A stretch of DNA of 24,102 bases. Origin: a virus. Positions 5,093 through 22,374 of this stretch are shown piece after piece. Within the stretch, counting starts at the first letter, position 1. Each line of letters begins with the position of its first letter. The stretch is from the IMG/VR virus record IMGVR_UViG_3300009537_000175, positions 1 through 24,102 of that record. One strand, written 5' to 3'. The translations under genes and the position numbers were made by a program. The notes beneath the pieces were generated by a model. The model was given only the letters and a program-made list of their open reading frames with translations. It was not told the DNA's origin and made no database searches.

Positions 5093-5950
5093 TTATTTTC
5101 CCGTCCAGATACCCTTGCGCCCCTGCTTATCCGTCACGACTGGATATAGCACCCCATCCGGTCCCTTTTCCTTTTCGCCGGTGTATTTATAACCATCCCC
5201 TTCTGCCGAAAGGATAAGCTCATTCATTCTGCTAATTTCTTTCTGTTTTGCTTTCTCGTCCGCCTTTTCCTTTTCTTGAATATCCAGTCTCCTGCTGGCC
5301 GGCGTAGGAGGTTTATACTCAGCTGGTTTAGGTTGTGACGTATTCAATATGGACATTGCGCTGGTTGGTTGAACCCCTGCCTGAACCAAGTCTGCCACAA
5401 GCCCCATTCTTTCACTTTGTGGTGTCGGGCCGGTTGGCCCCTGCAACTCCCCAGGCAACGGTTCACTTTGCATGGTCATCGACCTGTCTCTTAATACACC
5501 GGCGACACGGCCTCCGGTAGCTTCCCTTTCCTGTTGCTTTTGCGTAGCCATGTGCTGCTTTTTCATAAGGTCAAGGGACGCTTTCTCGCCCGCAGTCAAA
5601 GACCCGCTTAACTCTCCTATGAGCGCACTGAATAACGTAGTATCCTTGTCACTTAGAGCTTTGCCTAACGCTTTAAACGTGTCCTTGTTATCCTCAAAGT
5701 CCTGCGCCGTTACCATTGGGAACTCACCAAGTTGCCCCTGTTTGGCGAACCTCGGAATCTGGTTGAGATACTTGACACTGCTTTCAATCTTCATCCCTGG
5801 GGTGGCCGCCATTTTCAGTAACATCTCTACCGTTCTGACGGAGTTCTGTCTCGCCTCCCTTTCCTCAAGCATTTTGTTCTGTAAGCCCATCTCCATGCCG
5901 CGCGCGATCCCCGCTCCGAGACCGCTTAAAAGTCCAACATTGCTAGGCAT
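5093..5950 (-). CDS. Probable internal virion/ejection protein
   Basis: 285 aa. ATG is preceded by a good ribosome binding site (GGAGGTAATAA) and overlaps the upstream stop by 8 bases. The N-terminus (LLSGLGAGIARGMEMGLQNK) is a Gly-rich amphipathic stretch followed by charged helices; the region near 160-230 is Pro/Gln-rich, and residues 225-245 are a Lys/Glu/Gln coiled coil. The C-terminus is short and Gly-rich. Such N-termini with Gly-rich helix plus coiled coil are typical of podovirus ejection proteins. No enzymatic motif is visible. The position between the S74 protein and the 1332-aa protein supports a virion role. Confidence 0.65.
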   Translation of the reverse strand: MPSNVGLLSGLGAGIARGMEMGLQNKMLEEREARQNSVRTVEMLLKMAATPGMKIESSVKYLNQIPRFAKQGQLGEFPMVTAQDFEDNKDTFKALGKALSDKDTTLFSALIGELSGSLTAGEKASLDLMKKQHMATQKQQEREATGGRVAGVLRDRSMTMQSEPLPGELQGPTGPTPQSERMGLVADLVQAGVQPTSAMSILNTSQPKPAEYKPPTPASRRLDIQEKEKADEKAKQKEISRMNELILSAEGDGYKYTGEKEKGPDGVLYPVVTDKQGRKGIWTGK

Positions 5951-7496
5951 TTATTACCTCCGCATCTTTATACATATCAATCTTTTCCGTTATATGTTGT
6001 GGCAATCGGTCATACATAATACCCTCTATTTCGCCGTTATCATTTTTAAATACGGCATCCGGCCTTATCTTGGCGGTTTCTTCGGCAATCATGCCAGTGT
6101 CCTTTTTCCCCGATTCTTTCCATACAAACGAAACGATACGAAGCCCTGTTTTAGGGTCAATTTCCAGTGTCTCTATATTCTTTTTGTATCGCCTTGATGA
6201 CATTAGCCATTTTGTACCCGCAAGTCCTACTCCTGTCCCAACACCGCTCATTAACTGGTCAAAACCGCTGGGTTGCATGCTACTGTGGTAATCATATCCC
6301 ATTTGAGCAAGCTGTTTGTCATATTCGAACTTCTTTTCCATAAGGTCGCTCTGGATATACGGCTGTGTGGCACTTGCAACGCTACCTCCCAGCACACCCA
6401 CCCCTTGATTGGCGTTCTGAGTCCCCGCATGTTGTAACACTCCAATTCCTTCACCTATGGCGTTCGTTACGCCCGGTGTCGAGGGCTGTTGAGGGTTGGC
6501 TAGAATATTAAGGTTGCGCAATCTCCTGCCCTGCAAGTCTGACGACAACGCCGTTGACTGGCTTAATAAACTCAACCCCTGATTTATCTCGCCCCTTCTT
6601 TCGGCATCTAAAGCCAGCGTCCATGTCTGCTGGAATTCCCCTAACGCCTGCGCCGCAGGGGTCGAGAACCCTATCGCCGTGTCTGGGCTGTCACCCATAA
6701 TGGCGTGGCCTTTACGGGCAAGGTTTTCCTTCAACTGAGTGAACTCGTCTCTCTGCCGTTTGAGAGTCCCTTCGCTTATAGCACCTTCGCCCCTTAACGC
6801 CTTTTCAGCCCTGTCAGCCTGTAAAAGAGCTATATCGTTGTACCTTTCCTCTACTTCCGATATGGGTTGTTTGAGGTATTCGCCTATATGCCCCTGAGCC
6901 GCCATAGCCTGCGTGAGGCGGGTTTTTTCTATCTCTTCCTGACTGGCACCTATCTCATTCAGAAAATCAAGCCTGTCGCCGAGTAATCCCTGATACTTCT
7001 GCTGTAAATCCGCATTGGTCTGCTGAATATCCTGTAACTGCTGTATCTGTTCGGGAGTCTTAGAGGCGATCTGCATAAGCTGGTTGCCAAGCGTCTCCGC
7101 TTGGTTTATCTGCCATGCCGTGTGGTCGCCCACCAAATCGAGGTACTCTATCTGAAACTGTTCTATGGCATCCTGCGTGAGTTCCTTCGTGTCTTTCGTG
7201 TTGTCCATGAAATCGGAGTTCTGGAGCTTGTCTATCTGGTCTTGTAACTCGGAACGCACATCGACCACAGATTGAAGCTGGCCTTCACTTACTTGGTCAT
7301 ATATCGTTGCCGGATGGTCAAGTACCGTAGTTTCGCCTGTTGCTTGGTCATAGTAAGTATATTGCGATGGCGGAGCGTTCTCTAGTTGTCCCTGTAATGA
7401 CTGTATTTGCGCCTCCAGCGCATCGCGTTGCTCCTGTATATCCTGCGACTGCCCTTCGGCTATGAGGTCTGATACGCTGGTTATTGTGTTAGGCAT
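5943..7496 (-). CDS. Coiled-coil virion protein with C-terminal S74 chaperone domain
   Basis: 517 aa, started by ATG after a strong AGGAGGGA site. Residues 1-300 are Gln/Glu/Leu-rich coiled coil. Residues 300-430 are Gly/Gln/Ser-rich with a Gly-rich segment (GVGTGVGLAG). Residues about 432-517 match the Peptidase_S74 intramolecular chaperone: SSRRYKKNI (canonical SDxRxKxxI, with Ser in place of Asp), a VSFVWK strand, GMIAEE, and a final IMYDRLPQHITEKI helix. S74 domains normally trimerise a fibre or spike and then cut themselves off. Here the host protein is not an evident fibre and lies among the ejection-type genes. It may be a trimeric coiled-coil appendage or a scaffold for neighbouring proteins. 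Confidence 0.8.
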   Translation of the reverse strand: MPNTITSVSDLIAEGQSQDIQEQRDALEAQIQSLQGQLENAPPSQYTYYDQATGETTVLDHPATIYDQVSEGQLQSVVDVRSELQDQIDKLQNSDFMDNTKDTKELTQDAIEQFQIEYLDLVGDHTAWQINQAETLGNQLMQIASKTPEQIQQLQDIQQTNADLQQKYQGLLGDRLDFLNEIGASQEEIEKTRLTQAMAAQGHIGEYLKQPISEVEERYNDIALLQADRAEKALRGEGAISEGTLKRQRDEFTQLKENLARKGHAIMGDSPDTAIGFSTPAAQALGEFQQTWTLALDAERRGEINQGLSLLSQSTALSSDLQGRRLRNLNILANPQQPSTPGVTNAIGEGIGVLQHAGTQNANQGVGVLGGSVASATQPYIQSDLMEKKFEYDKQLAQMGYDYHSSMQPSGFDQLMSGVGTGVGLAGTKWLMSSRRYKKNIETLEIDPKTGLRIVSFVWKESGKKDTGMIAEETAKIRPDAVFKNDNGEIEGIMYDRLPQHITEKIDMYKDAEVINA

Positions 7497-7677
7497 CTGG
7501 TCCCTCCTGTTTGGTCAAAAACGCTCCGTCCGGCGATAACGTGTACGTTCCTTCAAGTTCTTTCGCATTGATGTATGTGTCCACTATCAACTGCACGGTT
7601 GCGGTAGTAGCGTTTATCTTCCCGATTAAGGACTGTATATACTGCCTTGTCTTGTCGTCTATCTGTACTTTTTCCAT
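7489..7677 (-). CDS. Small conserved-looking virion-operon protein
   Basis: 62 aa. The ATG overlaps the upstream stop (TAATG), and a GGAG lies 11 bases upstream. The end overlaps the S74-protein start by 8 bases. The first 40 residues form a helix or two (TRQYIQSLIGKINATTATVQ), followed by a short beta-like tail with Tyr/Thr/Ser/Asp (TYTLSPDGAF). I do not recognise it. The tight stop/start overlaps on both sides argue for a real gene. No transmembrane helix is apparent, so it is not an obvious holin. Confidence 0.6.
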   Translation of the reverse strand: MEKVQIDDKTRQYIQSLIGKINATTATVQLIVDTYINAKELEGTYTLSPDGAFLTKQEGPDA

Positions 7678-8054
7678 TAGAACTTTGCTCCAAATCCTAT
7701 TCCTATTCTGTCGTTATTCATTACAGCCTGCAACCTTCCCCCTAACGTCATCGTTTGCCATATCTTACGGTATTTGGGGGGGAGTTTTCTGGATATTAAC
7801 CCGTGCCCCAGCAAAGATAACGCCATATACAAATCCACGTCCTGTACTCTGGGGTTTTTCCCTATTATCTTTTGAGTTATGGGGTTGGCTTCGTGATAGT
7901 TGTGGCCTCGCTTATCCTTCTGGGCGATAGTTCTGGTTTGCGCCCAATCAGCCAGTAACGACAATGCGTGGACTCCTTCCATAACCGTATCGTCCTTTGA
8001 CCATTCCTTTGACGATGGTATGTCTTTAATAACGTCCAATATTCCTATATCCAT
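7677..8054 (-). CDS. Small helical protein, DUF5658-like, unknown function
   Basis: 125 aa, starting 6 bases after the tail-fibre stop. The pattern LADWAQTRTIAQ followed by HEANPI and then YMALSLLGHGLI resembles small phage/bacterial proteins of the DUF5658 type (Asp near a Thr pair, a later Glu-x-Asn-Pro, then hydrophobic helices). The hydrophobic helices are short and interrupted, so membrane insertion is possible but weakly supported. The C-terminus ends in GIGFGAKF. Position between fibre and S74 protein suggests a late role. A lysis function (spanin or holin partner) cannot be excluded, but no lipobox or clear transmembrane segment is seen. Confidence 0.6.
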   Translation of the reverse strand: MDIGILDVIKDIPSSKEWSKDDTVMEGVHALSLLADWAQTRTIAQKDKRGHNYHEANPITQKIIGKNPRVQDVDLYMALSLLGHGLISRKLPPKYRKIWQTMTLGGRLQAVMNNDRIGIGFGAKF

Positions 8055-8060
8055 CCATGA

Positions 8061-9302
8061 TTACCCGATTCTGCATCCAGTGAAATATGAACGAGAAGTA
8101 GTCCCTACCACTGTTGATGTATTTCTATTAACATTTTCGGCAGTTACTTCAAAATAATCAGTAGACCCATTTGCATCTACAACTGCTGTGACAGTTTGGC
8201 TTTCATCGGCACTACCGCTTGCTATATTAAGGGTTCCTGCATATGTTGCGCTGTTTTTGAAGATCCATACATATAAAGCATCACCATCAGTGAAACTGCT
8301 CCAACTAATAGTCGCAGATAATAGATATTTGCCCGCTACTGTAGGAGTAAATCTATAATATGTGGTACTATCAAAATCACTATTAGTATCGAATACCTCT
8401 GTTGTCCATTCTATCTTCTCATTGCCTGTTATAGTTGTTTGGGCTGTTCCATTTCTATGAACACTAAAAGAAGGCCAATTCGAACCAGCGAAAATGGCAG
8501 ATTCTATAGTAGCTTCGGTTGTTGCGTCTAAGGCGTCTACGTTGGAAAGGGTCATGGTTCCGGCGGAGTCGGCTAGAATTGGAGTGGCATTGAACAATAG
8601 ACTTGAACTTGCGGCAAGGTCCACGCTTGCATTGGGATTGAGTTGCCCTGAAATCGTAACTGCCCCCACTAATGTTGAAATTCCACCAACATATAAAGCT
8701 TTTGCCACCCCTAGCCCGCCGTCCGTATGAATCGACCCTGTTACCGCCGAGGTCGAGTCTACAGTAGCATCTATGCTTAATGAACCGGGGAACGATATGT
8801 TTTGCGAAGAATCAATATTAATAGCCGTTACTCCACCAGTGGCAATGCCCATGTTGTTTGCGCCTATGCGATGGATACCCGTGTCTAAATCACCTGTAAA
8901 GGTCATCCCCGGTGCGGCGGCTGAACCGCTTGCAAAGTCCGCACTGGATGTGAACGTAACTACGCCAGAAAATGTCTTAGTCCCCGCAAATGTAACACCG
9001 GAGTTGGTAAATACGGCGGCAAGCGAACCGTCAGGGTCTATGTACCATTGAGCCTCCCCCGTTATCTGTGCCACTAGATACCGTAGCCTGTCAATCTCTC
9101 CCTTCAAATCCGTAGGGAGCGATACAGCCGCTCCAGGGTAAGGGTCAACGGTAGTCTGGAAGGCCGTAGCGTCAGCCGACATATCGCCTATGCCGGTGGG
9201 GTCCATATTGTTTATTATCTGGTCAAGGGCGGCTTCCAGTGACGTATCCGTTAACTCTCCCCCCGCCGCCCATTCTTGGTCGCGTGAAAATGTTGCTGGC
9301 AT
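8061..9302 (-). CDS. Tail fibre with C1q/TNF-like C-terminal domain
   Basis: 413 aa with a good GAGGT site 6 bases before ATG. The N-terminus (residues 1-90) has the INNMDPTGIGDMSAD, TTVDPYPG and LKGEIDRLRYLVAQITG pattern common in podovirus fibre anchors. Residues 100-270 are a repetitive beta-rich shaft with TFTGDLDTGIHRIGANNMG and INIDSSQNISFPGS, typical of trimeric fibres. From about residue 275 to the end there is a jelly-roll-like domain (SFSVHRNGT, YYRFTPTVAGKYLLSA) matching C1q/TNF-like fibre tips. It should bind the host surface. Notably it lacks the C-terminal S74 chaperone that usually follows this shaft type. Confidence 0.85.
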   Translation of the reverse strand: MPATFSRDQEWAAGGELTDTSLEAALDQIINNMDPTGIGDMSADATAFQTTVDPYPGAAVSLPTDLKGEIDRLRYLVAQITGEAQWYIDPDGSLAAVFTNSGVTFAGTKTFSGVVTFTSSADFASGSAAAPGMTFTGDLDTGIHRIGANNMGIATGGVTAINIDSSQNISFPGSLSIDATVDSTSAVTGSIHTDGGLGVAKALYVGGISTLVGAVTISGQLNPNASVDLAASSSLLFNATPILADSAGTMTLSNVDALDATTEATIESAIFAGSNWPSFSVHRNGTAQTTITGNEKIEWTTEVFDTNSDFDSTTYYRFTPTVAGKYLLSATISWSSFTDGDALYVWIFKNSATYAGTLNIASGSADESQTVTAVVDANGSTDYFEVTAENVNRNTSTVVGTTSRSYFTGCRIG

Positions 9303-9310
9303 CTCTTACC

Positions 9311-10864
9311 TCAATTCAGTTTTGCGCCGAGATTCTTATAATCAACCATTATCTGCGATATATAAAAATCCTGGTCGGCTATGTCATTATACACTTCAAA
9401 CTCTATCCGCTTCCCCGTGTTTTCTATCTCAAACGTGGTATCCACGAAGTTTTTCCCGCCTAACGTAATCGGAAACGTCATCGGGAAAGTATCTCCGGTT
9501 CCGGCAAGCGTGATGGTTTGTGATGTCTGCGCCACACCGTCTATCCATATCCTCACGTTGATGCTGTAACTGCCGGTCGGTTTTATAATCGCCCTGAATA
9601 AGCGGTATAGCTTGTCGGCCCTCGGATTGCCGAAATGTAACGCCGGAGTTCTCAATCCGGCATAGTATCCGTTGCCGTCGTCGTTCTTGGCCGTTTTTTC
9701 AAGTTCCCATACAAACCCCGAATAATCTCCGGTGATTACGCTTCTTGTCAGGTTGGTTTTTCTTATCTGTGCCGATACCGCGGCACTGTGCCCCGAAGCG
9801 GAGTTTTTATTGTCGTGTATCATCCACGCTTCCTTCGGGTTGCGGTCTATGTAATATACGAGGTCTGTATCGACCTGCGTCTGTCCGTTGCGCCTTACAA
9901 ATACCCGTACAGCCCTTATCTTCGGATCGTAAACCGCATGACATTCGTCTATATACTGCAAATTCACGTTATCCTTAATCCATTTATGCATGAACGACGG
10001 CCTTGTAAGAGAAGCCATCTTGTAATCGCCATACGTCTGTGCGGACGTGATACTGTAAATCTCACCGTCTTCCATCATCGCAACCACGTCATTCGGCGTT
10101 CTTACGATAAGCCTGTGGTGAGCCGCTCCTCCGAACCATTGCGCCCCTACAAACCCCCAATTAGCTACCGTTGTAGAAGTGTCATCCAGTACAAACGCTT
10201 TCGTTTTCCCGAAACATAACAGCCGGTCGCCGAAGTCTATAGCCCCGACAATCCCGTACCCGTCGCCAGTGTCCATGTTTATAATAACCACGTTGGCATC
10301 GGAAAAATCTTCCATATCCCCTACATCGCTTATATAAACGGACTTGAGGTTGCTCGGACACCCGAAGGCGCACATTCTTTGTGAAGATTCCCTTCCATGT
10401 ACGACCATGTATTGAGGGTAATTGGACCCCGTCCAGTCTGTAGGAGTACTCGTAATATTGGAGGTGGAACCTGCCGACCCGTCCCATATTTGAGGGATGT
10501 TGGCACCGTCCGTTATAAAGAGCTTGTTCTCGCCCATCACCATGCCAAACTTGTTGGTAGTGGACATACCTGTTTTAAGCGAAGTCGTGTAATCCTTATA
10601 GATAACCCCGTCATTGCAGGCTGTTATAATAAAACTGTTCCCGTTTTCGTACCATGCGTTGAACAGTCCCAGAACCTCCGGCGACCCCGTAATGGCCGTG
10701 CCGTTGAGTTTCGCCGTCCCGCCTCTCGGAGTTCTCCAGTTATCCTGTAAGTTGATATTTCTGGTGGGAGAAACCATGTCATGCGGCTCCACAAGGTCTA
10801 TATTGGGGTTGGCTACAAACCCGCCCCTGTCACATGGGATTAAAAATGTATTGCCTCTAAACAT
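9311..10864 (-). CDS. Tail nozzle/hub beta-propeller-like protein (P22 gp10-type)
   Basis: 517 aa from the ATG at 10864, which follows AAGGG at 9 bases and overlaps the upstream gene by 8 bases. A longer frame starting at 10894 has no ribosome binding site. The protein is beta-rich with repeated blades of the type GDRLLCFGKTKAFVLDD and NKLFITDG, typical of propeller-like nozzle proteins such as P22 gp10 (packaged DNA stabilisation) and similar podovirus tail hub proteins. The C-terminal 100 residues form a beta-sandwich-like domain. It sits directly after the adaptor and before the fibre, as expected for a protein closing the DNA channel. Confidence 0.75.
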   Translation of the reverse strand: MFRGNTFLIPCDRGGFVANPNIDLVEPHDMVSPTRNINLQDNWRTPRGGTAKLNGTAITGSPEVLGLFNAWYENGNSFIITACNDGVIYKDYTTSLKTGMSTTNKFGMVMGENKLFITDGANIPQIWDGSAGSTSNITSTPTDWTGSNYPQYMVVHGRESSQRMCAFGCPSNLKSVYISDVGDMEDFSDANVVIINMDTGDGYGIVGAIDFGDRLLCFGKTKAFVLDDTSTTVANWGFVGAQWFGGAAHHRLIVRTPNDVVAMMEDGEIYSITSAQTYGDYKMASLTRPSFMHKWIKDNVNLQYIDECHAVYDPKIRAVRVFVRRNGQTQVDTDLVYYIDRNPKEAWMIHDNKNSASGHSAAVSAQIRKTNLTRSVITGDYSGFVWELEKTAKNDDGNGYYAGLRTPALHFGNPRADKLYRLFRAIIKPTGSYSINVRIWIDGVAQTSQTITLAGTGDTFPMTFPITLGGKNFVDTTFEIENTGKRIEFEVYNDIADQDFYISQIMVDYKNLGAKLN

Positions 10865-11723
10865 CGGCCACGACCCTTTGCAACCCGCTGACATTTTCTA
10901 TCTGCTTCGCTATCAGATATGCCGTCATGCGGGCGAGTTCTCGCTCCTCTTTTTCGGCCCTTGTATCGTCCATCCTCTTTAACGCTTTCACTTCGATATA
11001 CTTCTGTAAAACATTCCTGAACCTGTTAAGGAATAACGTGTAAACCGCGTCACTCGTATCGGCTTTCATGATGTTCGAGTAATACCTGAATAAAATCCCG
11101 TAGTAGGACTGGTCTGGAACCTTCCCAAGATAAAGTTTGTCGTCGTATTCGGCGTAAAACTCCGGCCTCGCCTTTTCACCGACACTAAAAAAACTTGCAT
11201 CCAACGCCGATATTAAAGCCGGTTTGAGCGTATAGCGGTAACTGATAATCATGTATAAGGAAGTCGAATCCGGAGTCGTATTCCAATTCCCGTCCATCGT
11301 AGCAACTTTGGTGGTCGTGCTGAAAGTTTTACATTGCTGATACCCGCCTGCCCCCGTGCCCGAATATATCAATATGTATTTACCGACAACATAATCTTCC
11401 GTTGACGAATCGGCGGCGGCTAACGTGATGGAATCCGCCGCTCCCGCCTGGGCCGTCCCTCTCGTATCGCCGTCCAGTATCGCCACTTCAAGACCCCTGT
11501 CATAATCGGTCGGCATGGCGTACTCGCGAACTCCCTTGACAGATATGGCTATCTTCGTCTGTTGGAAATCTCTGGCCTTTTTGAACCGAGTCCAGACGTA
11601 TTCCTTAGCCTCCGGCAACCAGTTACTTGACGCTAAAGTCGAGTAAGTCGTACTGGATATGCCTGCATCGCTTAATGCCGCCGCCGTTATGACGGATTCC
11701 GTTACATCGCTTGGGACTGCCAT
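10857..11723 (-). CDS. Head-tail adaptor-like protein
   Basis: 288 aa, ATG preceded by TGGAAAG, overlapping the upstream GT9 gene by 22 bases. The start is helical (SVITAAALSDAG) with a YVWTRFKKARDFQ helix, then a beta-rich insertion of about 100 residues rich in Asp/Thr/Gly/Ser, then helices with YTLFLNRFRNVLQKYIEVKALKR near the C-terminus. This helix - beta barrel - helix plan matches podovirus adaptor (tail tubular protein A / gp11-like) proteins that dock under the portal. Its place between capsid and nozzle genes supports this. Sequence alone does not prove the family. Confidence 0.65.
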   Translation of the reverse strand: MAVPSDVTESVITAAALSDAGISSTTYSTLASSNWLPEAKEYVWTRFKKARDFQQTKIAISVKGVREYAMPTDYDRGLEVAILDGDTRGTAQAGAADSITLAAADSSTEDYVVGKYILIYSGTGAGGYQQCKTFSTTTKVATMDGNWNTTPDSTSLYMIISYRYTLKPALISALDASFFSVGEKARPEFYAEYDDKLYLGKVPDQSYYGILFRYYSNIMKADTSDAVYTLFLNRFRNVLQKYIEVKALKRMDDTRAEKEERELARMTAYLIAKQIENVSGLQRVVADV

Positions 11724-12688
11724 TTTTCTTTCCAGTTCAAATAATGTTTTTCGATAAGTTTATACATGGCCTCCGGCTTTATCGCCGCCATGCACACTGG
11801 AGAACCGGTCGTTTCGTTTTTCTCGCACGCTTCCCAGCTATATATAAGTTTATGGCAGGGGGAACATTCGACATCCCCTCGTACCGTGTCGCAATTTTTA
11901 AAATGTTTCGTAAGGTTTTCTTCCGAACTGTGGGACAACATCGCTATCTTCGGAGTGTCGAAGCACCCCGCCGCGTTAAGTATCCCCGTTTCAGGGGCTA
12001 CCACAAGGTCCGCGTACTGAGTCATTATGAGCGACCGCCATAAATCCCATTCCCCGCAATAGTTCTTGGTTTGGGGATGCTTCCATTCTATTACCTGCTC
12101 CACTATCCCGCCTACCGTTACCATAACTATGTCTGGAAAAGCGTTTTGTATCGCAACCGCCACATATTCGGCGTATGGGTAAGTCTTGTGAGGAGATGAC
12201 CCCGATAAAGACCATAAGATTAAAAATCTGTTTGAATACCTCGCCTTGAAGTTTTGCGCCCAGCTATGTTCATACTTCGAGAAAAACAGCTCCCCTCTAT
12301 ACCCCTTTTCGTCAGGATACCCGCCGAGTTCCATAGTCCTGTCGTAATAGTTTACGTTGAACTTCTCATGTCTTTCTTCATGTGACAGGTCGAAATTCTC
12401 CTGCCCTTCGACGGCAAGCAACCCTTCTTCAATACTTCCCGAAAGGTTTATGAACCTGTCGTACCCTTTTTTTAATTCCTCCCAATGTTCGTGCAGTTTC
12501 TCGTTAGGGATGGATTCATCATGGAACATGAACTCATCGACGTAAGGATTGCGCCTCACTATCGGGTAAGGGTCTTTGTGCATATTCAAGGTAACGTGGT
12601 AGCCGTCTTCCTTTAGTTTGCGAAGCAGCGGCGTAATCATCACTAAATCACCCAACGCCCCGTACCTGACGACTATAACCTTCTTCAT
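11702..12688 (-). CDS. GT9 family glycosyltransferase (heptosyltransferase-like), second copy
   Basis: 328 aa, ATG overlapping the methyltransferase stop by 4 bases. The N-terminus VVRYGALGDLVMITPLLRKL is the glycine-loop start of ADP-heptose:LPS heptosyltransferases (GT-B fold). Other family-like elements are SPHKTYPY near residue 165 and APETGILNAAGC near 231 (canonical D-T-G-x-x-H-x-A-A-x). A Cys cluster ECSPCHK (residues 274-280), with later C288 and C299, is shared with the paralogue upstream. The donor and acceptor are unknown. In bacteria the family adds heptose to LPS core; here the gene sits in a virion operon, so the acceptor might be a capsid or tail protein, or host surface sugar. 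Confidence 0.8.
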   Translation of the reverse strand: MKKVIVVRYGALGDLVMITPLLRKLKEDGYHVTLNMHKDPYPIVRRNPYVDEFMFHDESIPNEKLHEHWEELKKGYDRFINLSGSIEEGLLAVEGQENFDLSHEERHEKFNVNYYDRTMELGGYPDEKGYRGELFFSKYEHSWAQNFKARYSNRFLILWSLSGSSPHKTYPYAEYVAVAIQNAFPDIVMVTVGGIVEQVIEWKHPQTKNYCGEWDLWRSLIMTQYADLVVAPETGILNAAGCFDTPKIAMLSHSSEENLTKHFKNCDTVRGDVECSPCHKLIYSWEACEKNETTGSPVCMAAIKPEAMYKLIEKHYLNWKEKWQSQAM

Positions 12689-13230
12689 CGGCGTTTTGCC
12701 ACTACCGTAATTATATGTTGCGGTTTATCGGGGTTTCGTATAGCCCCTTCCTCGTAATTGTATTCAAGAACCTCATATCCAAGCCTTGCCAGAAGTCCCG
12801 TAAGACTGTTCAGCCCGAAGTACCATAAGTGCTCATCAGGTCTGTAATGCTTCCAGTCTTCTATCTCCCATTGGCCTATAGCCTCTACATTGGGAGTGGA
12901 TATGAACAGATATTCGGGACGAAAAGTGTTTATCGGTTCGGCAGGGTCTTCAAGGTGTTCGATAACGTCCCACATTGTGAGGATTTCTATGTCTTCCAGC
13001 GGGGGGATCATGTACCCGCAATGGGGATTCACGTCATATCCGTAAGTCTCAAACCCGTTCGTGCTGGATTTATGGAACGCCCCAGGGCCGCATCCGTAAT
13101 CAAGCAACGTCATGTTTCCGTGGCAATATTTTTCCACAAGCTCCCATCTTGAGCGGTAAATCCTTTTCCCCGTCTCGGATTCGGCGCGTTCTTTATACCG
13201 TTTGTAATACGCTTCGTTGTATATGTTCAC
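12685..13230 (-). CDS. Class I SAM-dependent methyltransferase
   Basis: 181 aa from a GTG start at 13230, preceded by AAAGAG; a TTG at 13245 would add five residues. There is no ATG. Motif I is clear (LLDYGCGPG, residues 42-50), followed by YDVNPH and the DVIEHLEDP element typical of Methyltransf_23-type small-molecule or sugar methyltransferases. The gene lies between two GT9 glycosyltransferases, overlapping the first by 38 bases and the second by 4 bases, so all three should be made together. O-methylation of a sugar or glycan is the obvious context inference. DNA methylation is unlikely, as no target-recognition region or DPPY-type motif is seen. Confidence 0.85.
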   Translation of the reverse strand: MNIYNEAYYKRYKERAESETGKRIYRSRWELVEKYCHGNMTLLDYGCGPGAFHKSSTNGFETYGYDVNPHCGYMIPPLEDIEILTMWDVIEHLEDPAEPINTFRPEYLFISTPNVEAIGQWEIEDWKHYRPDEHLWYFGLNSLTGLLARLGYEVLEYNYEEGAIRNPDKPQHIITVVAKRR

Positions 13231-14236
13231 TTTCAACTCTTTCAATCATGTTTTGTATATTGAACCTTGTTATGCAGGGAGGGATTATATCCTCATCGTA
13301 TTGAATCATGTTCCCGCAATCTTCCTGCGTGTATATGGCCTTGTGGCAAGGGGAGCACTCTATATCAGCCTGAACCGAGTAGTCGTTCTCGTGATACTTG
13401 ACCATCTGTTCAATGCCGGACGCGGTTGCCAACATCATCTTCGGCGTTCCCCACATTCCTGTGGCTACCATCAGCCCCGTCTCGCCTCCGATTACAAAAT
13501 CCATGAATTTCATCATTAAGGCGGCCTGTTTGAGCGGAACTGTCCCGAACATGGGAATTACGTTGTCGTGCCTGAATTCGTCAACCTCATCCTTTAGGTA
13601 ATCAAGCGAACTGTCGCCCATAAGGTAGATTTTTATATCGTCAAACTTTTCCCGTAACTGCTTGACGAGGGTTGGGTAGTAGGGGAATACTTTGTGAGAG
13701 CAGGTTCCCGCTACCGCTATGGCCACAAGAAAACCGTCCTGTCTGTCGGCCCACGCGCCAACGATGTTCTGTTGTTCATCGCTGAAATACAATGAATCAA
13801 TACCACGGAGAGACCAGCCGACTTCTACATCCGATAACGGTATCTCACATCTTTCCAACACAGCTTCATAAAAGTTCTTCCCGCCGAAATGCTCCTGCCT
13901 TTCCTTTGTGGAAGCCGTGAATATCTCCTGATGTCTGGCGGCTATGCACTCGACTTCAAGCGTTCCGTCAAGGTCGATAACTCGGTCGGGCTTGATAGTT
14001 TCCTTGAGCTTTTCCAACCGTTCCTTAATAACTTCTTCATGCTTCGTCAACGGTATCTTTTCATATTCCATAACCGTTATCTGTTTGAAGCGCGGGTCGT
14101 CATGAAACAGCCCATACCCCTTCGCCGTCGTCTCAAGGTAAACCTCGTACCTGTCACAAAGGACATTAAGAGCGGGAAGGCAATACAACCAATCCCCGAA
14201 CGCACGATAACCAATCAATAACAGTTTACGTTTCAT
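13193..14236 (-). CDS. GT9 family glycosyltransferase (heptosyltransferase-like), first copy
   Basis: 347 aa from the ATG at 14236. An upstream in-frame start at 14293 would lie inside the terminator hairpin and add Gly/Arg-rich residues, so it is rejected. The N-terminus LLLIGYRAFGDWLYCLPAL matches the GT9 first loop. Further elements are CSHKVFPYYP (residues 179-188), GGETGLMVATG (250-260) and ECSPCHK (293-299), each aligning with the second copy, so the two are paralogues. No Shine-Dalgarno site precedes ATG; the sequence upstream is the T-tract of a terminator. Expression may therefore be low and depend on read-through. Substrate unknown. Confidence 0.8.
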   Translation of the reverse strand: MKRKLLLIGYRAFGDWLYCLPALNVLCDRYEVYLETTAKGYGLFHDDPRFKQITVMEYEKIPLTKHEEVIKERLEKLKETIKPDRVIDLDGTLEVECIAARHQEIFTASTKERQEHFGGKNFYEAVLERCEIPLSDVEVGWSLRGIDSLYFSDEQQNIVGAWADRQDGFLVAIAVAGTCSHKVFPYYPTLVKQLREKFDDIKIYLMGDSSLDYLKDEVDEFRHDNVIPMFGTVPLKQAALMMKFMDFVIGGETGLMVATGMWGTPKMMLATASGIEQMVKYHENDYSVQADIECSPCHKAIYTQEDCGNMIQYDEDIIPPCITRFNIQNMIERVESEHIQRSVLQTV

Positions 14237-14271: not shown

Positions 14272-14691
14272 CTAGTCCACGTCCCCTTTCCAAACAAGGT
14301 TTACAGCCGAGGTCGGCGTTGAAGCCGCAGTTCCGGCCAGATTGGTTAGAACGATGAAGTCGCCGGCATCAAACTCGGTTTCAGTCACGGTGAGAGCCGC
14401 GTGGTCCAGATTCGCGTCCGTTCCATGAGCGTGAGTACCGAATTGAGCGACCGTACCAGTACCGGCAAGGGATTTCCCTACCGCTATATTAGGGCCAGCC
14501 GCCGTCCCGCCGACAACCATTAGCACCCCTCCGCCGACAACAGTCATCTTCCTCGGCACGCGCACTCTTGTAAGTACGGTGTCGGATGCGGCTGTGCCGG
14601 GTACAGAGCTTCCGCCTATGGCGGTCATGGGGAGTATATGTTGGGTCGTATTATCCGCCCCATCGTAAATAGCGTCATTTCTGATAGTCAT
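14272..14691 (-). CDS. Small Ala/Thr/Gly-rich capsid-associated (decoration-like) protein
   Basis: 139 aa, ATG after a strong GAAAGGAGGGAG site and 15 bases behind the major capsid protein stop. The composition is rich in Ala, Thr, Gly, Val and Asp with alternating hydrophobic beta-like strands (RVRVPRKMTVVGGGVLMVVG) and no coiled coil. Small beta-rich proteins immediately after the capsid gene are often head decoration or head fibre proteins, and the strong ribosome binding site fits high expression. The many Thr/Ser residues could accept O-linked sugars from the GT9 genes downstream; that is speculation. No specific family is recognised. Confidence 0.6.
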   Translation of the reverse strand: MTIRNDAIYDGADNTTQHILPMTAIGGSSVPGTAASDTVLTRVRVPRKMTVVGGGVLMVVGGTAAGPNIAVGKSLAGTGTVAQFGTHAHGTDANLDHAALTVTETEFDAGDFIVLTNLAGTAASTPTSAVNLVWKGDVD

Positions 14692-14706: not shown

Positions 14707-15669
14707 CTATGCGGAATCCCATTTGATTATTCTTGCGTTAGGTTCGTCAGACCATTCAATCTGGAACCCACCCATCCAATACCACGCAAGGCCATGCGAC
14801 CTGTCGTAGTCCGTAGGATGCTTTCTCCTGATCTCCTCCGGTATGACTATCGCCTCCCTGCAAGTATCCGAGCCGAATACATATCCGGGCTTGGAACCGC
14901 TGGAACCTGCGAACGTGATAGCCGTTTCAGTCCTTGCGGAGGCATCAGTCACGAACCTTGAGGCGTAGTTGTCCTTTATAATCCTGCAGTTGAAGTACCG
15001 CCCCGTTTCGCCAGCCGCAATCCTCTTGTGGCCGGTTTCAACGTACTGGTTCATGCTCTGCAAGTCCGCGAACAACTCCTCATGCGCTTCCGTGGAAAGA
15101 ATCGCTACATAATCGCCTCCGGCACTCGAATACCCAGGCACGTTGCGTTTCTCAAGCTCCACCACCATCTTGCGAAGGTGATACGCCTTGAATCCGCCTG
15201 TGCAGGTGGCCGTCGCCGTACCATTGGTCGTCACCGCGCCTCCGGCCGTAGCCGTTCCTACATACCTTAACGGAGTCGCGTTAAACTGCCTCTCCACAAG
15301 GCCGTCTATAACCTTAACGCGGTCGTTCATAAGGCCGCCCCTGAGGATGCCCTCAAAATCCACCTGAGAAAGAGCCATGCTCTTCTTCGTGTAAGGAATC
15401 GAGTTGCCAGCCTCATTGACTGTTAGTGTGCCTTTCGAAATCACAACGGTGGTCTGGTGCATGGTGTTGGTTTCCACCAAAGTACCACCGCGTGTGCTTA
15501 CATTGGCCACTTTGTCCCAGTTTACGCTATCGCCCTGGCTTTTCCCGAAAGCCTCTTTGATAGAGCAAAACTGGCGGAATCTTAACATGGGCTGTGCCGC
15601 TACGCGGAATTCCCTATTCAGCTTTGTGTTGGCTAAATAGGAGCCCTGGTCAATCCAGTTCATTGCCAT
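14707..15669 (-). CDS. Major capsid protein (N4 gp56-like / P22-coat type)
   Basis: 320 aa, ATG 7 bases after AAAGGA; an alternative ATG lies two codons downstream. The N-terminal region with a conserved helix (LNREFRVAAQPMLRFRQFC) followed by beta-rich segment, a central part with IRDRV-like sequence (MNDRVKVIDGLVERQFNAT), and a C-terminal element (YVFGSDTCREAIVIPEE) match N4-gp56-family major capsid proteins with the HK97 fold. It follows the scaffold gene by 12 bases, the usual order in podoviruses. The protein should form the procapsid lattice with the scaffold and mature upon DNA packaging. Confidence 0.85.
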   Translation of the reverse strand: MAMNWIDQGSYLANTKLNREFRVAAQPMLRFRQFCSIKEAFGKSQGDSVNWDKVANVSTRGGTLVETNTMHQTTVVISKGTLTVNEAGNSIPYTKKSMALSQVDFEGILRGGLMNDRVKVIDGLVERQFNATPLRYVGTATAGGAVTTNGTATATCTGGFKAYHLRKMVVELEKRNVPGYSSAGGDYVAILSTEAHEELFADLQSMNQYVETGHKRIAAGETGRYFNCRIIKDNYASRFVTDASARTETAITFAGSSGSKPGYVFGSDTCREAIVIPEEIRRKHPTDYDRSHGLAWYWMGGFQIEWSDEPNARIIKWDSA

Positions 15670-16901: not shown

Positions 16902-18664
16902 GCGCCGCCTCTATTGATATCGACGACATTATCCATTTCGCCGTTTTTAAGCTGTCCGGCGGCCTGCCCCGCCAGAGCCTGGTTCTGCGGGCCTTGTGCA
17001 GGTTCATTAACCGTTATCACGAAATCCTTTATATTCTTCATCCCCAGAAGCCGCATAAGTTCGTCTTCAAAAGCGGCAGGGTTATACAGTTTCACCCCGT
17101 TAGGCGGCATGGCCCCCGACTGTAAAAGCTGTATCTGGCTCTGGTTCGCCATCATGGCTTTCTCCATCGCCATTAGCAATTTCCTTAAATCCTGGTCTTT
17201 ATCGAACTCGCTTCTCCCTACCTTCAACGTAAGGTCGAGTTCCAAGTCGGCGAAATCGTCCACATCGGCCAGTAGCGGCAAAGTCTGTTCCCCGAACTTC
17301 ATGGGGTTCTTTCGTTTGAAACTATCGTTGGCGATTCTCATTACCCGCTCACTTGTCTCAAACTTGTTAATCTGCCATAAAAGCTCATGGTAAAACGGTT
17401 TCATGTACGTTTCCGCTACAATCGCCGTGAAAAGACTTATCTTCACATCGGAGTTTTGTTCATTAATCCTCGCTACGGTAGCCTTCTGGTTGGCACTGCC
17501 AAGCCCCTGCTTCCCCGGTGTAACCCCCGACAGCTCCTGCATCATGGCCTCGTCGCTGGCGGCTTCTATATAGGCGTTCTGGGTAACGTCCGGCATCCTC
17601 CTGTCCACAATAGCGTTCATGTCGTCCGTAAGCGTTATCCCCGCAGGTCTGGAGTTAACCAGACTATCCAAATCCACGTTACCGAACCTCGATACGACCG
17701 TCATCGGGTTGAGCACAAGGGAAACATTATCTTTCCTTTGGTTCAACGTGGTGGTAAAAGACTCGTTCGGGCCTTCTAGAATCTCAGGGAACCCCGTTCC
17801 TATGGCCTTATGGGGGTCAAACAAACATTGTCCGAACATCAAGGGGTAATGGTCGTAAACCGACTCTTCCGGCTCCCTTAACTCAACCTCGGCCTCGTTG
17901 CTGTACCCAAGCCATACCTTCCCGTCTTTTTTGTAAAACGTCTCGTATACGGCATAAAAGTTTTTCGCAGTCTCGGCATCGGTAGTCCCGTCTTTCCCTG
18001 GAGACGGATACTCATTTTCCCCATACGTCCCTGGGTCGCCGGTGCCTTGATGCCTCACATTCCTTAGAACTTCATTCTTGATGGACGAAGGACGGGCTTT
18101 ATCGATGTTTTTGAACCCCATCTCCTTCATTTCCTCCATCGTCATGTAATTGACGAGGATTACATACCGCATCTTTTCCTTATAAACCCCGTTCCAGTCG
18201 GCAAACACCTGTTCGTTGGGATAAAGCGTGTATTCAGGATGGTCTTTATTCCACCATAGTTTCCCTACCCCCAACCCCAAATCGGCTATATTTTTAAACG
18301 CCGACAGATGTTTTAACGCCAGAGAATCGCGGCGGTTCAAGCGGTCTATATGATATAAGGCGACCTCCTCCAGAACCTTCGCCCTGTGGAAATCATCCTC
18401 GGTTCTCCCCCCCAAATCAAACGGCTCCATCTCCGACAGGAACGTGCGGTGCAAATCCGACACAATCCTCCATGTGATGGCCTCAATCTTTCTATAATTT
18501 ATCTTCGCCCTGTTTCTCGTCTTGCTCCATGTGTTCTCGTGAGGCTCGAATATCCCCTTTATAATCCTTAGATTCTTCGCCCATCTCTGGTCGTACATGG
18601 AACGGTCGTTGGCGGATCTGGACTTCCACCTCTCGACATCCAATAAAAACTGTGTTTTGTCCAT
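16898..18664 (-). CDS. Portal protein
   Basis: 588 aa, ATG overlapping the TerL stop by one base (TGATG). The N-terminus has YDQRWAKNLRIIKG and TRNRAKINYRKIEAITWRIV, typical of podovirus portal proteins of the P22-like type. The central region has GFPEILEGPNE and LNQRKDNVSLVLNPM elements. Near residues 360-390 a SGVTPGKQGLGSANQKATVARINEQ segment matches the portal stem/tunnel-loop region. The C-terminus holds a Gln/Asn-rich stretch. It should form the 12-fold ring through which TerL packages DNA. Order terL - portal - scaffold - capsid supports the assignment. Confidence 0.85.
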   Translation of the reverse strand: MDKTQFLLDVERWKSRSANDRSMYDQRWAKNLRIIKGIFEPHENTWSKTRNRAKINYRKIEAITWRIVSDLHRTFLSEMEPFDLGGRTEDDFHRAKVLEEVALYHIDRLNRRDSLALKHLSAFKNIADLGLGVGKLWWNKDHPEYTLYPNEQVFADWNGVYKEKMRYVILVNYMTMEEMKEMGFKNIDKARPSSIKNEVLRNVRHQGTGDPGTYGENEYPSPGKDGTTDAETAKNFYAVYETFYKKDGKVWLGYSNEAEVELREPEESVYDHYPLMFGQCLFDPHKAIGTGFPEILEGPNESFTTTLNQRKDNVSLVLNPMTVVSRFGNVDLDSLVNSRPAGITLTDDMNAIVDRRMPDVTQNAYIEAASDEAMMQELSGVTPGKQGLGSANQKATVARINEQNSDVKISLFTAIVAETYMKPFYHELLWQINKFETSERVMRIANDSFKRKNPMKFGEQTLPLLADVDDFADLELDLTLKVGRSEFDKDQDLRKLLMAMEKAMMANQSQIQLLQSGAMPPNGVKLYNPAAFEDELMRLLGMKNIKDFVITVNEPAQGPQNQALAGQAAGQLKNGEMDNVVDINRGGA

Positions 18665-20652
18665 CAGTACGCCACCGCCGGAACTTCCGGTTTGTATTCA
18701 GGCAGTCTCTTGCCGTAATCTGGAGCCACATACCTTATCGGAAACTGGAATACATACCTCATGGCCGCATGGAAATGATGTTTACCTTCCAAAATCTTGT
18801 CCTTTTGTCCCTTTTTTTCCTCATTCAACGCGACATCCCTTTCCAGCGTCAACATGGAGTTGATCAACATACGGTTGTTGGGGGTATCAAATATGAAAAA
18901 GTTGGGTTTCCCCGTCTTCTCGTCAACCTTCAACCTCCTCTTAATCTCCTCGACCCCCGCGTCTATGGAACCAGGATACTTGATCGACTTCCTTAATCCG
19001 CGCATCCTGTTAGGGGACCTCCTTAAAGTGTCAAATATGTTCAACCCGCCGAACGCCTCAATTCTTACGTCCGAAGACTGGTCAACTACACTCCATCCCA
19101 TCCTCCAACGTTTTGTAATGGCGGATACGTCAGCCTTGACCTCCTCGATATCCCTCGCCTTGTCGCCCCAATAAGAATCCACCACATAAGGAATATTTTC
19201 GCGGTCAATCGCTACAAACACGACCGCAGTGGGAGTCGTCTGGTGGGGGTCCATCCCCGTCAATACCATATACTCGTCCGTAATAGGGAAAGGATCGATA
19301 ACATGCAGGCTCCGGCTGAAATGCTTATACACACGGCCGGAAAGAGATACAAACTCACCTAAAAGCCGCATCTTGACTTCCTCGTACGAACCGAGACCTG
19401 CGACAATATCTTCCAATACCTTCAAATTCGCATACCTGTTCGTTACAGATGACATCTTGAAACACTCGATGGAATTGCCGTCAATATCCTGTTTCCCCAA
19501 TATCTCGTCATTAACCCAGGTCATCCCCTTAGTGGGAGTCATCTCAAACAATATCCTCACTCTGCCGGCAGTAGTGAACCGCATCAGGTTCTCTTTATAT
19601 ATCTCATATAACGGTTCCTCATCATAAACCACCATGCCCCTCGGAGGGCCCTGAAAGCTCCCCACACTCTGCTTATTCGACATGAACTCTATAGTCCCGA
19701 ATAACTCACCCTTCTTCCCCAACCTCAAAATACTCTGCTCACTGGAAAAACTCTTCTCCCAACTCCCGTCAATCAAATACTCCCTCGGACACCACTCCCT
19801 GTACTTGGGGATAACATTCTTGAGCAACCCGTTCACATAATCCTCACCCACGACCCTTACATGAAAAGGACGGGGAACATCCAACTTCTCCTTCGGGTAT
19901 ACATCCCTAAGAGAATTAGGAACCTCACCCGTTACGGCAATAAACGACTCAAGAGCACCCGAAACACTCTTGCCGCTGTTATGGTGGATAACCCCACTTG
20001 CCAGATAATTATGGTATTTGGGAACCGTGAAATCATATTTGATGTCGCGGCGTTTATGCACTATACCGGTTATCACCAATTGAGGCGTAACCGTGGAGGA
20101 CGATAATGTGGAAGACTCCAGAAGGGAAATCCCGCATCTTAACGGCAACTCACTTAAAGAAAGGTAACCGTTCTCCGTCAAAACAACGTGATTCATCGAG
20201 GCCACAAAACTCTCCCCGTTAGATAACCCAAACTCATATAAATCGTCAACAGGTTTCGTAAAAGGTTTCTGGGCCTCCGCCGTAACCAAAAATTCCCCAT
20301 CCCACGCCAATACATGAAAATCTGAATCAATCTCACCAACAGGTCTATCAACACCCAAAACAGGGTCATATATCAACGTCTCACCACCTAAACACTGGTT
20401 ACCACCAAAACCACCCACAACATTAGCAGTACTCATATGAACATCCATCTGGCTGTCCAAACGCTCAGGAATGTCCTCAGGCAATATATGACGCCTCAAA
20501 AACTCCAAGTTCGCAGAAGGAACACTCCCGTCACTAGGAACATAAAACCAAAAAGGGTCACTCTGCTCCAATAACTTCTTCTGAACCAATAAATCCTTGT
20601 AACGCTCAACTAACTCGGCTTGAGTAACACCCTTCTTAGCTTTCTTAGCCAT
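18664..20652 (-). CDS. terL: Terminase large subunit, interrupted by an intein in the Walker A loop
   Basis: 662 aa precursor from the ATG at 20652 (an upstream TTG at 20682 is less likely). The mature extein would be 523 aa, a normal TerL length. The P-loop is split: GGNQ at residues 83-86, then 139 intein residues, then SGKS at 226-229, giving GGNQSGKS after splicing. Walker B is VVYDEE (about 341-346), followed by the coupling motif FEMTPTKG. The RNase H-like nuclease has LTGMDPH (D468) and VVDQSSD (D524). The third acidic site is replaced by a His-rich element (KHHFHAAMRY), where most relatives have Asp; this may affect metal binding. It cuts and pumps DNA with the small subunit and portal. 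Confidence 0.95.
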   Translation of the reverse strand: MAKKAKKGVTQAELVERYKDLLVQKKLLEQSDPFWFYVPSDGSVPSANLEFLRRHILPEDIPERLDSQMDVHMSTANVVGGFGGNQCLGGETLIYDPVLGVDRPVGEIDSDFHVLAWDGEFLVTAEAQKPFTKPVDDLYEFGLSNGESFVASMNHVVLTENGYLSLSELPLRCGISLLESSTLSSSTVTPQLVITGIVHKRRDIKYDFTVPKYHNYLASGVIHHNSGKSVSGALESFIAVTGEVPNSLRDVYPKEKLDVPRPFHVRVVGEDYVNGLLKNVIPKYREWCPREYLIDGSWEKSFSSEQSILRLGKKGELFGTIEFMSNKQSVGSFQGPPRGMVVYDEEPLYEIYKENLMRFTTAGRVRILFEMTPTKGMTWVNDEILGKQDIDGNSIECFKMSSVTNRYANLKVLEDIVAGLGSYEEVKMRLLGEFVSLSGRVYKHFSRSLHVIDPFPITDEYMVLTGMDPHQTTPTAVVFVAIDRENIPYVVDSYWGDKARDIEEVKADVSAITKRWRMGWSVVDQSSDVRIEAFGGLNIFDTLRRSPNRMRGLRKSIKYPGSIDAGVEEIKRRLKVDEKTGKPNFFIFDTPNNRMLINSMLTLERDVALNEEKKGQKDKILEGKHHFHAAMRYVFQFPIRYVAPDYGKRLPEYKPEVPAVAY
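19978..20394 (-). other. Mini-intein (139 aa) within the terminase large subunit
   Basis: The in-frame segment starts with Cys (block A, CLGGETLIYDP), has a block B-like element (ASMNHVVLTENGY, with Ser-Met-Asn-His where most inteins have Thr-x-x-His), a block F (KYDFTVPKYHNYLASG) and ends in HHN (block G) before a +1 Ser of the extein. At 139 aa it has no room for a LAGLIDADG or HNH homing endonuclease, so it is a mini-intein. Removing it restores a canonical Walker A loop. Nucleophiles are Cys1 and Ser+1, the cyclising Asn is residue 139, preceded by His138. Confirmed at DNA level: TGT for Cys at 20394-20392, AAC for Asn at 19980-19978, AGC for Ser. Confidence 0.95.
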
Positions 20653-20854
20653 ATATGTACTCAAGTACGTTAAATACACCAATATCAGGTCTCCACTCCG
20701 TGGGACGACCGCACTTTTGCACCGATATGCTGTACCGCAGTGACACGCTTTTTGTTTTTTGGAACGGGGAGAGGGGACTATATATATACCCCACGGGGCG
20801 TCCTTCCCCCCCGCCCCCTACCCTTCCATCAATAAAATCAACGCTTTGCGCCAT
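20645..20854 (-). CDS. Small ORF bridging terS and terL
   Basis: 69 aa. Its ATG overlaps the upstream stop as TAATG, with a GGGGGAATA leader, and its TAA lies inside the first codons of terL (8-base overlap). This fits a translationally coupled gene filling the spacer exactly. The sequence is odd: a Gly-rich N-terminal half encoded by the G/C-tract region, and a C-terminal part CGRPTEWRPDI then VLEYIYG that resembles the start of GRPTxYxP-type HTH proteins common in phage small terminases. It could be a real small protein, or a remnant of a second terminase-type HTH protein, or a fortuitous frame over a packaging site. Confidence 0.4.
   Translation of the reverse strand: MAQSVDFIDGRVGGGGEGRPVGYIYSPLSPFQKTKSVSLRYSISVQKCGRPTEWRPDIGVFNVLEYIYG
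20765..20822. repeat. G/C homopolymer tracts with a (TA)5 core; possible packaging site
   Basis: The terS-terL spacer holds GGGG runs, a 10-base alternating TA stretch (20779-20788) enclosed by GGGG and CCCC, an ACCCCACGGGG element, and a long C-rich tract (20802-20819). This is unlike all neighbouring sequence. Such structure near terS might be a cos or pac site, but no cut site can be located by eye. It might equally be only part of the 69-codon ORF. Confidence 0.35.
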
Positions 20855-22098: not shown

Positions 22099-22374
22099 AT
22101 GAAAATAGAAATTAAAAACAAGTTCACTAACGAAACAATTTACCAAGCGGAAGCTATATCGCTGAAAGATGCAGTTGAAAAAGCTATAAATGAAGGCGCA
22201 GATCTTCAGGGAGCAGATCTTCGAGGCATGAATCTTCAAGGCACGAATTTTCGTGGTGCGGATCTTCGGTATGCGGATCTTAATGGCACAAATTTGCGCG
22301 ATGCAGATCTTAGCTATGCAGACCTACGATATGTAAATCTTTGGGGTGCAAATCTGCATGGTGCAAAGCTCTAA
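22099..22374 (+). CDS. Pentapeptide-repeat protein
   Basis: 91 aa, ATG after AAAGGAAAA. Residues 1-33 form a beta/alpha head (IEIKNKFTNETIYQAEAIS then a short Ala/Glu helix). Residues 34-91 are about 11.5 tandem A(D/N)LxG/Y pentapeptides, which fold as a right-handed quadrilateral beta-helix. Phage proteins with this N-terminal head are common and of unknown role; some larger pentapeptide proteins mimic DNA and block gyrase. With under three full coils it is short for a gyrase inhibitor. It may bind another protein. Confidence 0.85.
   Translation: MKIEIKNKFTNETIYQAEAISLKDAVEKAINEGADLQGADLRGMNLQGTNFRGADLRYADLNGTNLRDADLSYADLRYVNLWGANLHGAKL

Follow-up and report, generated by a model that had tools for sequence, protein, structure and literature searches.

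Glycosylation of virion proteins is known in some phages, including the mycobacteriophages Che8 and Rita (Freeman et al. 2023, as cited in the available excerpts of PMC12619734 and PMC11256854), and according to the same excerpts glycosyltransferases are common in some phages. The protein heptosyltransferase TibC holds iron with four Cys residues, which are needed for its assembly and for heptosylation of TibA, and has a β-barrel at residues 1–97, as given in the accessible part of PMC4358343. The DNA analyzed here (the window) spans the whole of IMG/VR virus record IMGVR_UViG_3300009537_000175, 24,102 bases. Its minus strand carries, within the virion operon, a cassette of three overlapping genes that encode two GT9-fold glycosyltransferases, GT9a and GT9b, flanking an S-adenosylmethionine (SAM) methyltransferase. 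The phages with this cassette form a podovirus-like lineage related to Xuquatrovirus, HelliStehle and Xuquatrovirus being podoviruses in the available part of PMC11990801. Comparison across the lineage indicates that GT9 is inherited with the major capsid protein (MCP), and the cassette is proposed to glycosylate a virion protein.

Distribution and Inheritance of the GT9 Genes

A first scan with an alignment of the paired GT9 sequences recovered ten loci, with MCP just upstream in nine and the tenth contig starting 0.5 kb before GT9. Two scans of uncultured viruses were anchored on MCP, where 79 loci (L016–L094) were scored from the best 80 of 547 confirmed relatives, and on GT9, where 72 further loci were scored from the best 80 of 441. 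Of the 79 loci of the MCP-anchored set, 52 had a GT9 downstream of MCP in the same orientation, as located with a GT9 profile; two (L041 and L090) lacked it, 24 had too little downstream sequence and one with a broken MCP open reading frame (ORF) was set aside. When limited to the 40 loci with at least 5 kb of sequence, GT9 was found in 37 and absent in two, with one set aside, and L041 was scored as lacking it on only 5.2 kb of sequence, its close relative L059 having GT9 from 4.5 kb on. GT9 was found upstream of MCP or on the opposite strand in none of the MCP-anchored loci. Of the 72 loci from the GT9-anchored scan, 59 encode an MCP of this family in the orientation of GT9, and 12 have less than 5 kb upstream. 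L185 carries a glycan gene cluster (2215–9023, plus strand) with GT2-like and methyltransferase-like ORFs, identified by eye, ahead of GT9, and has no MCP within nearly 8 kb upstream of GT9. As contigs repeat or are near-duplicates within and between the scans, these counts do not represent independent phages or events. The arrangement is not a matter of chance, since it recurs across a lineage.

On a tree of MCP sequences with 88 rows (GT9 in 73, absent in 15), built by a quick method with support from the Shimodaira–Hasegawa-like approximate likelihood ratio test (SH-aLRT) only, the presence of GT9 required 4 changes compared with a mean of 14.1 for shuffled labels, and none of 500 shuffles was as low. 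Twelve of the GT9-less rows form one clade (support 98) containing cultured Escherichia and Vibrio phages together with loci from Bradyrhizobium, Aminobacter and Hahella. In the window's branch the GT9a sequences form one clade (SH-aLRT 99) of 12 loci, mostly two-copy, apart from GT9b, which indicates that the pair is old and has been kept rather than arising as a local tandem copy. As judged from these trees, GT9 is inherited with MCP and is the rule in this lineage. A preliminary description of the window, made from its sequence alone, had allowed for an occasional insertion; comparison of relatives with and without the cassette rules this out for GT9, because it is inherited with MCP. The same description had called the arrangement unusual, which holds against described phages, with no PHROG match for either GT9 and no GT9 relative in a tblastn search of 50,697 phage records, but not within the lineage itself.

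The usual order of the slot is MCP, a cement-like gene, variable genes, GT9, an adaptor-like gene and a head-closure gene. Of the 48 loci in which a gene follows the last GT9, 21 have a member of the cluster-3 family immediately after it and then one of cluster 4, the representative of which matches head closure Hc3 (phrog_578, 325.6 bits). Clusters 5 and 14 occupy this position in six more loci and other or small genes in the remaining 21; comparison of the cluster-3 and cluster-5 adaptor families gave no clear relation.

Motifs and Predicted Fold of the GT9 Pair

GT9a (347 residues, ATG start) is encoded at 13193–14236 and GT9b (328 residues, ATG start), the paralogue nearest the adaptor-like gene, at 11702–12688, both on the minus strand. 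The methyltransferase ORF (12685–13245, minus strand, from TTG) overlaps GT9a and shares 4 bases with GT9b, which in turn overlaps the next gene (start at 11723) by 22 bases; the ORFs, their coordinates and the overlap of all three genes are thus as first described. Likewise borne out are the kinship of the two GT9s, which at 28% identity (E 5e-40) are, by sequence, true paralogues, and their common HKTYPY/HKVFPY (HKVFPY in GT9a) and ECSPCHK motifs. GT9b scores 25.6 bits with PF01075 (cut-off 22), whereas GT9a reaches 20.9, below the cut-off, or 22.1 bits in a six-frame search that includes its neighbors in frame. Both fall under the cut-offs of the equivalog models for lipopolysaccharide (LPS) heptosyltransferases I and II, TIGR02193 and TIGR02195, with scores of 29.3 (cut-off 134.6) and 16.8 (cut-off 185.3) for GT9b and of 12.5 and 14.1 for GT9a. 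Single-sequence scans with P0003 and P0001 gave no matches.

All 73 distinct full-length GT9 domains keep the GD motif, within their first 25 residues, the Lys of GS..HK and four C-terminal Cys residues, with strict CxxC spacing of the latter in 54. By analogy with WaaC, the Asp of the GD motif (Asp15 in GT9a) is taken to be the catalytic residue. Judged by these residues, the GT9s keep a conserved active site of catalytic Asp and donor-pocket Lys. The four-Cys finger was considered as a marker of TibC-type protein heptosyltransferases and rejected, as many cellular GT9s carry CxPC..C..C (in a comparison of 30 loci from 13 host genomes, some of which cover the same ORF); E. coli WaaF, WaaC and WaaU have no CxxC. 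The motifs common to GT9a and GT9b are, on this comparison, features of the GT9 family and not special to the pair.

GT9b was modeled on the basis of 55 aligned GT9 domains, taken from the window and from related loci; the model has a mean predicted local distance difference test score (pLDDT) of 96.1 and a predicted template modeling score of 0.93. The best matches among solved structures are 3tov (Z 24.7) and E. coli WaaF (1psw; Z 24.0, root mean squared deviation (r.m.s.d.) 3.8 over 274 residues), followed by TibC (Z 21.2, r.m.s.d. 3.1 over 270 residues) and WaaC (Z 20.9). Plant NDH-PSI subunits (Z at most 19.9) and UDP-GlcNAc epimerases (Z at most 14.6) match more weakly. The nearest predicted viral proteins are from uncultured phages, the first being named RfaF (18% identity) and the ninth-ranked match being named Aah/TibC. 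Modeling, a check suggested in the preliminary description, thus predicts that GT9b has the GT9 fold, the GT-B fold of heptosyltransferases. The fold alone does not distinguish between protein and LPS acceptors.

The Methyltransferase and Other Companion Genes

The methyltransferase matches PF13489 (Methyltransf_23; 57.1 bits), in agreement with its first description, and phrog_6564 (84 bits), and with motif I as LLDYGCGPG is an ordinary class I enzyme. GTG at 13230 is a likelier start than the TTG, since the Met of the L003 homologue falls at this place in the alignment. Although GT9 is near-universal in the slot, the methyltransferase is not. Homologues lie between GT9 pairs in L003 (48% identity) and in L005, L006 and L008 (33%), and in many relatives the methyltransferase is fused ahead of GT9, with SAM motif I in 41 of 47 distinct fused domains. 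In L012, L010, L009 and L116 the fused methyltransferase-like domain has no motif I, and those GT9 parts that are complete retain the active-site residues; such a methyltransferase-like domain is possibly a pseudoenzyme or a docking domain. In L011 (2034–3906, plus strand) the methyltransferase and GT9 parts are read in different frames, with the break where they meet (RYG/GAIGD), which is either real or a sequencing error.

The other genes of the slot vary. L004 has a GT4 and a separate methyltransferase, L025 a GT4 and a Gfo/Idh oxidoreductase and L045 a GT2; hexapeptide acyltransferases occur in L007 and L017, the latter also encoding a nucleoside diphosphate-sugar epimerase/dehydratase. 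L032 (12392–13003, plus strand) and the near-identical contig L033 carry a GmhA-like phosphoheptose isomerase gene between two GT9 genes (TIGR00441 165 bits in L032, cut-off 209), possibly a phage-encoded first step of heptose synthesis. A single 764-residue ORF in L009 (3926–6220, plus strand) consists of a degenerate methyltransferase-like domain, GT9 and, behind it, GT8. In one group of relatives, L020 and its kin L019–L028, a sulfotransferase-like gene lies between the cement gene and GT9 (L020 2583–3215; 23.7 bits, cut-off 22), and L031 encodes a radical SAM/SPASM-like protein (8680–9687, plus strand) in the variable slot ahead of GT9. None of 224 distinct ORFs between the cement gene and the last GT9 of 62 loci has two or more hydrophobic segments, where WaaL, as control, has seven. 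Taken as a set of sequences, the cassette resembles a soluble unit for glycan synthesis whose end groups can be exchanged, unlike an exporting seroconversion locus.

Neighboring Virion Genes and the Terminator-like Hairpin

The minus-strand transcript runs from a TerS-like ORF through TerL, portal, a small ORF, a scaffold-like protein and MCP to a 139-residue all-β protein, GT9a, the methyltransferase, GT9b and the adaptor-like, neck-like and fiber/tail genes; the TerS-like and scaffold-like names derive solely from position and appearance. In base composition the cassette is similar to its flanks. MCP (14707–15669, minus strand) matches phrog_1357, major head protein (72.7 bits, E 5e-20), and is 36.7% identical to the MCP of Escherichia phage HelliStehle_Bas95. 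The 139-residue protein that follows (14272–14691, minus strand) is Thr-rich and was modeled with a pLDDT of 84, the matches including six phage cement or capsid chains from KHP40 (Z 8.9), KHP30 (8.5), BPP-1 (8.4), GP4 (7.5), Carin1 (7.4) and Pam1 (7.3). It is, from this model, likely to be a capsid cement (decoration) protein, an identity that is not proven because carbohydrate-binding modules match with similar scores.

On the other side of the cassette, the product of the gene that overlaps the end of GT9b (10857–11723, minus strand) has no Pfam or PHROG match; its family profile aligns with that of an Ad3-annotated Vibrio phage family (hhalign E 2e-4, probability 45%), so that the label of head-tail adaptor is moderately supported by profile comparison. 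The next protein (9311–10894, minus strand) is probably an Hc3-like head-closure or neck protein, as its family profile matches a family with an Hc3-annotated Vibrio phage protein (hhalign E 2e-6, probability 90%). The first-described position of the cassette, between a capsid block and a head-tail adaptor, is confirmed, with MCP and the cement-like gene upstream and moderate support for the adaptor downstream.

A strong intrinsic-terminator-like hairpin (14264–14245, minus strand; eight pairs, seven of them G-C, then a T run) separates the cement gene from GT9a. In the window's branch, hairpins follow the cement gene in L003, L016, L017, L018, L019, L020, L022, L030, L031, L034 and L035, and 17 of 61 distinct loci scored ≤0.05 in a test that used 60 mononucleotide shuffles only. 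As the GT9-less L090 also has a hairpin there, it was rejected as a cassette-specific feature. From its sequence and position it is a probable attenuator, which would allow high expression of the capsid genes and low expression of the enzymes. The late co-expression with structural proteins first suggested for the cassette is probably damped by this hairpin.

Three further features of the window were observed. The TerL ORF (18664–20682, minus strand) has a mini-intein-like insert at residues ∼97–236, splitting the Walker A motif into GGNQ and SGKS; the insert begins with Cys, ends with HN and scores 22.1 bits with PF14890 (cut-off 35.8). A 1332-residue ORF (1094–5092, minus strand), perhaps an ejected internal protein, ends the virion operon, and a short pentapeptide-repeat-like ORF, recognized by eye, lies on the opposite strand (22099–22374, plus strand).

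Hosts and Prophage-like Copies

An MCP scan of genome contigs found 38 loci, 19 with GT9, 13 without, five too short and one with a cut MCP. Isolates with a GT9 locus are Pseudothauera rhizosphaerae, Paraburkholderia rhynchosiae (WSM 3937) and Paraburkholderia sp. C35. Both Paraburkholderia loci look like prophages, as an integrase gene lies 37–38 kb from the methyltransferase-GT9 gene; no integrase is listed on the Pseudothauera contig. GmhA and RfaE-II are both present in 15 of 19 GT9-positive hosts compared with four of 13 GT9-negative ones (Fisher p 0.011), with RfaE-II scored over its own cut-off and GmhA by our threshold of at least 160 bits (one host being over the curated cut-off). Their greater frequency in GT9-positive hosts is as a heptose donor would predict. 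Host heptose supply may decide where GT9 occurs. Phage and host phylogeny, the binning of metagenome-assembled genomes and the GmhA threshold all confound the association, and the negatives are mostly one phage clade.

Proposed Function and Alternative Explanations

Gene content, fixed place, co-inheritance with MCP, fold, active-site residues and the lack of multi-pass proteins are directly supported. On this basis we lean, with a little better than even confidence, toward a soluble GT9/methyltransferase cassette that attaches a sugar, probably heptose-like, to a virion protein, with the methyltransferase capping the product. The acceptor, the donor sugar, the division of labor and the capping we infer as follows. 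Acting in the cytoplasm, before the head is assembled or as it assembles, GT9a and GT9b would add to a virion protein a nucleotide-activated sugar drawn from the host pool, most likely a heptose or something heptose-like; one of the two may add the first residue and the other lengthen the chain. The likeliest acceptors would be the cement protein, MCP or the neighboring adaptor, and a cytosolic acceptor agrees with cassettes that encode no multi-pass membrane protein. The methyltransferase would cap the glycan, the cap in relatives being supplied by a sulfotransferase, an acyltransferase or another glycosyltransferase. The Thr-rich capsid-associated protein named as a possible acceptor in the preliminary description is weakly helped by its composition, with 14–16% Thr in the cement proteins compared with 11.5% in a GT9-less control family. 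A bolder version, which we hold only tentatively, is that this large uncultured lineage O-heptosylates its own cement or capsid protein through a cytosolic GT9 subfamily that serves this purpose and has evolved together with MCP. The cassette would then be a protein-heptosylation system of viruses, in which relatives swap the decorating enzymes (methyl, sulfo, acyl and further sugars) like serotype determinants.

Several points weigh against virion glycosylation. A glycan on virions of this lineage is so far a proposal, and the GT9-less sister clade makes virions without the cassette. The Thr content of the cement proteins is barely above that of the control, so that its value as proof of the acceptor is weakened; the four-Cys finger, present in cellular WaaF homologues, is not diagnostic of a protein acceptor because cellular LPS-type GT9s carry the motif. 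Donor and acceptor may differ, as GT9b scores far under the cut-offs of the LPS heptosyltransferase models. A GmhA-like gene is found in one phage type only, and six of the 47 fused methyltransferase domains have no motif I pattern. LPS-core enzymes are likewise soluble, so that the absence of membrane proteins would fit an LPS acceptor too. Late modification of the host LPS core, which could hide receptors, keep superinfecting or released virions from adhering or alter the lysogen surface, is accordingly the main rival. The closest characterized GT9 folds are LPS heptosyltransferases, the related phage HelliStehle depends on O-antigen (in the available part of PMC11990801) and GmhA and RfaE-II are commoner in GT9-positive hosts. 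We consider it unlikely, although far from negligible, since the genes keep a fixed place between capsid and neck genes, away from lysogeny genes, and are inherited with MCP, no multi-pass partner such as a flippase or ligase occurs among the 224 cassette ORFs and the host association is confounded.

The proteins might instead have been kept for their fold, as structural components or chaperones in building the head and neck, with enzymatic activity lost or of minor importance. This would account for the directly adjacent adaptor, the fixed retention and the fused domains without motif I; it is improbable, because all 73 GT9 domains retain the GD motif, the donor-pocket Lys and the four Cys and because the glycan-enzyme companions vary. 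Glycosylation of phage DNA (hypermodified bases) is carried out by viral glycosyltransferases in other phages, according to the available excerpts of PMC12619734, but here the location among virion genes and the LPS-type GT9 fold make it very improbable; that HelliStehle is described, in the excerpts at hand, as restriction-sensitive is a weak point, because HelliStehle has no GT9. The genes of one cassette differ among close relatives, as might be expected of an accidental, recent moron with no virion role, yet this explanation hardly deserves credence given 4 changes on 88 MCP rows, a single GT9a clade of 12 loci and a composition like that of the flanks. If virion glycosylation by the cassette is true, it would be a fixed trait of an environmental podovirus-like lineage, beyond some mycobacteriophages, with a GT9 core and exchangeable end groups, and would alter what is concluded from metagenomes about the surface of phages, their adsorption and their stability. 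The prophage-like copies in cultured isolates (two Paraburkholderia, and also the Pseudothauera locus) make the proposal directly testable.

Comparison with Known Systems

The GT9s of the cassette resemble WaaF, WaaC and 3tov (CAZy GT9, PF01075) in their full-length GT-B fold (Z 20.9–24.7) and GD motif, and many cellular WaaF homologues in the C-terminal Cys finger. They differ from WaaF, WaaC and 3tov in sequence, with 14–19% identity in structural alignments, scores under the curated WaaF and WaaC cut-offs and ETG-x-NAA in place of NDSGLMH, and in lying in a phage virion operon. The bacterial autotransporter heptosyltransferases (BAHTs) TibC and Aah are dodecamers that place heptose on Ser of an autotransporter. 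With TibC they share the GT-B core and four C-terminal Cys residues in the order of the TibC iron finger; unlike TibC, GT9b has no N-terminal β-barrel, its model aligning from residue 1 onward with TibC residues 96–394.

Gtr-type seroconversion cassettes encode multi-pass membrane proteins, unlike the 224 cassette ORFs, none of which is multi-pass. HelliStehle_Bas95, Pondi (Xuquatrovirus relatives) and Vibrio phage 1.232.O have an MCP of the same family (34–38% identity) and a similar virion gene order; Bas95 and 1.232.O differ in having no GT9 between MCP and the neck genes, and the Pondi stretch is too short to tell. The mycobacteriophage systems are alike in encoding glycosyltransferases, the glycans being observed on virion proteins there and proposed here. 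The glycosyltransferase genes of Maravista lie near the 3′ end of its genome, not in the gap between capsid and adaptor genes, and neither GT9 nor a methyltransferase-GT9 protein is named for mycobacteriophage virion glycosylation (both in the available excerpts of PMC12619734 and PMC11256854). From a phage system for virion glycosylation we would expect genes that lie in the virion module and are inherited with it, as is found here. Searches of the open-licence literature with narrow terms found neither a phage heptosyltransferase nor a GT9/methyltransferase unit tied to one MCP lineage. Virion glycosylation as such is thus known; what appears to be new, as judged from the sequence comparisons and with a chemistry that is only proposed, is a GT9/methyltransferase unit tied to a single MCP lineage.

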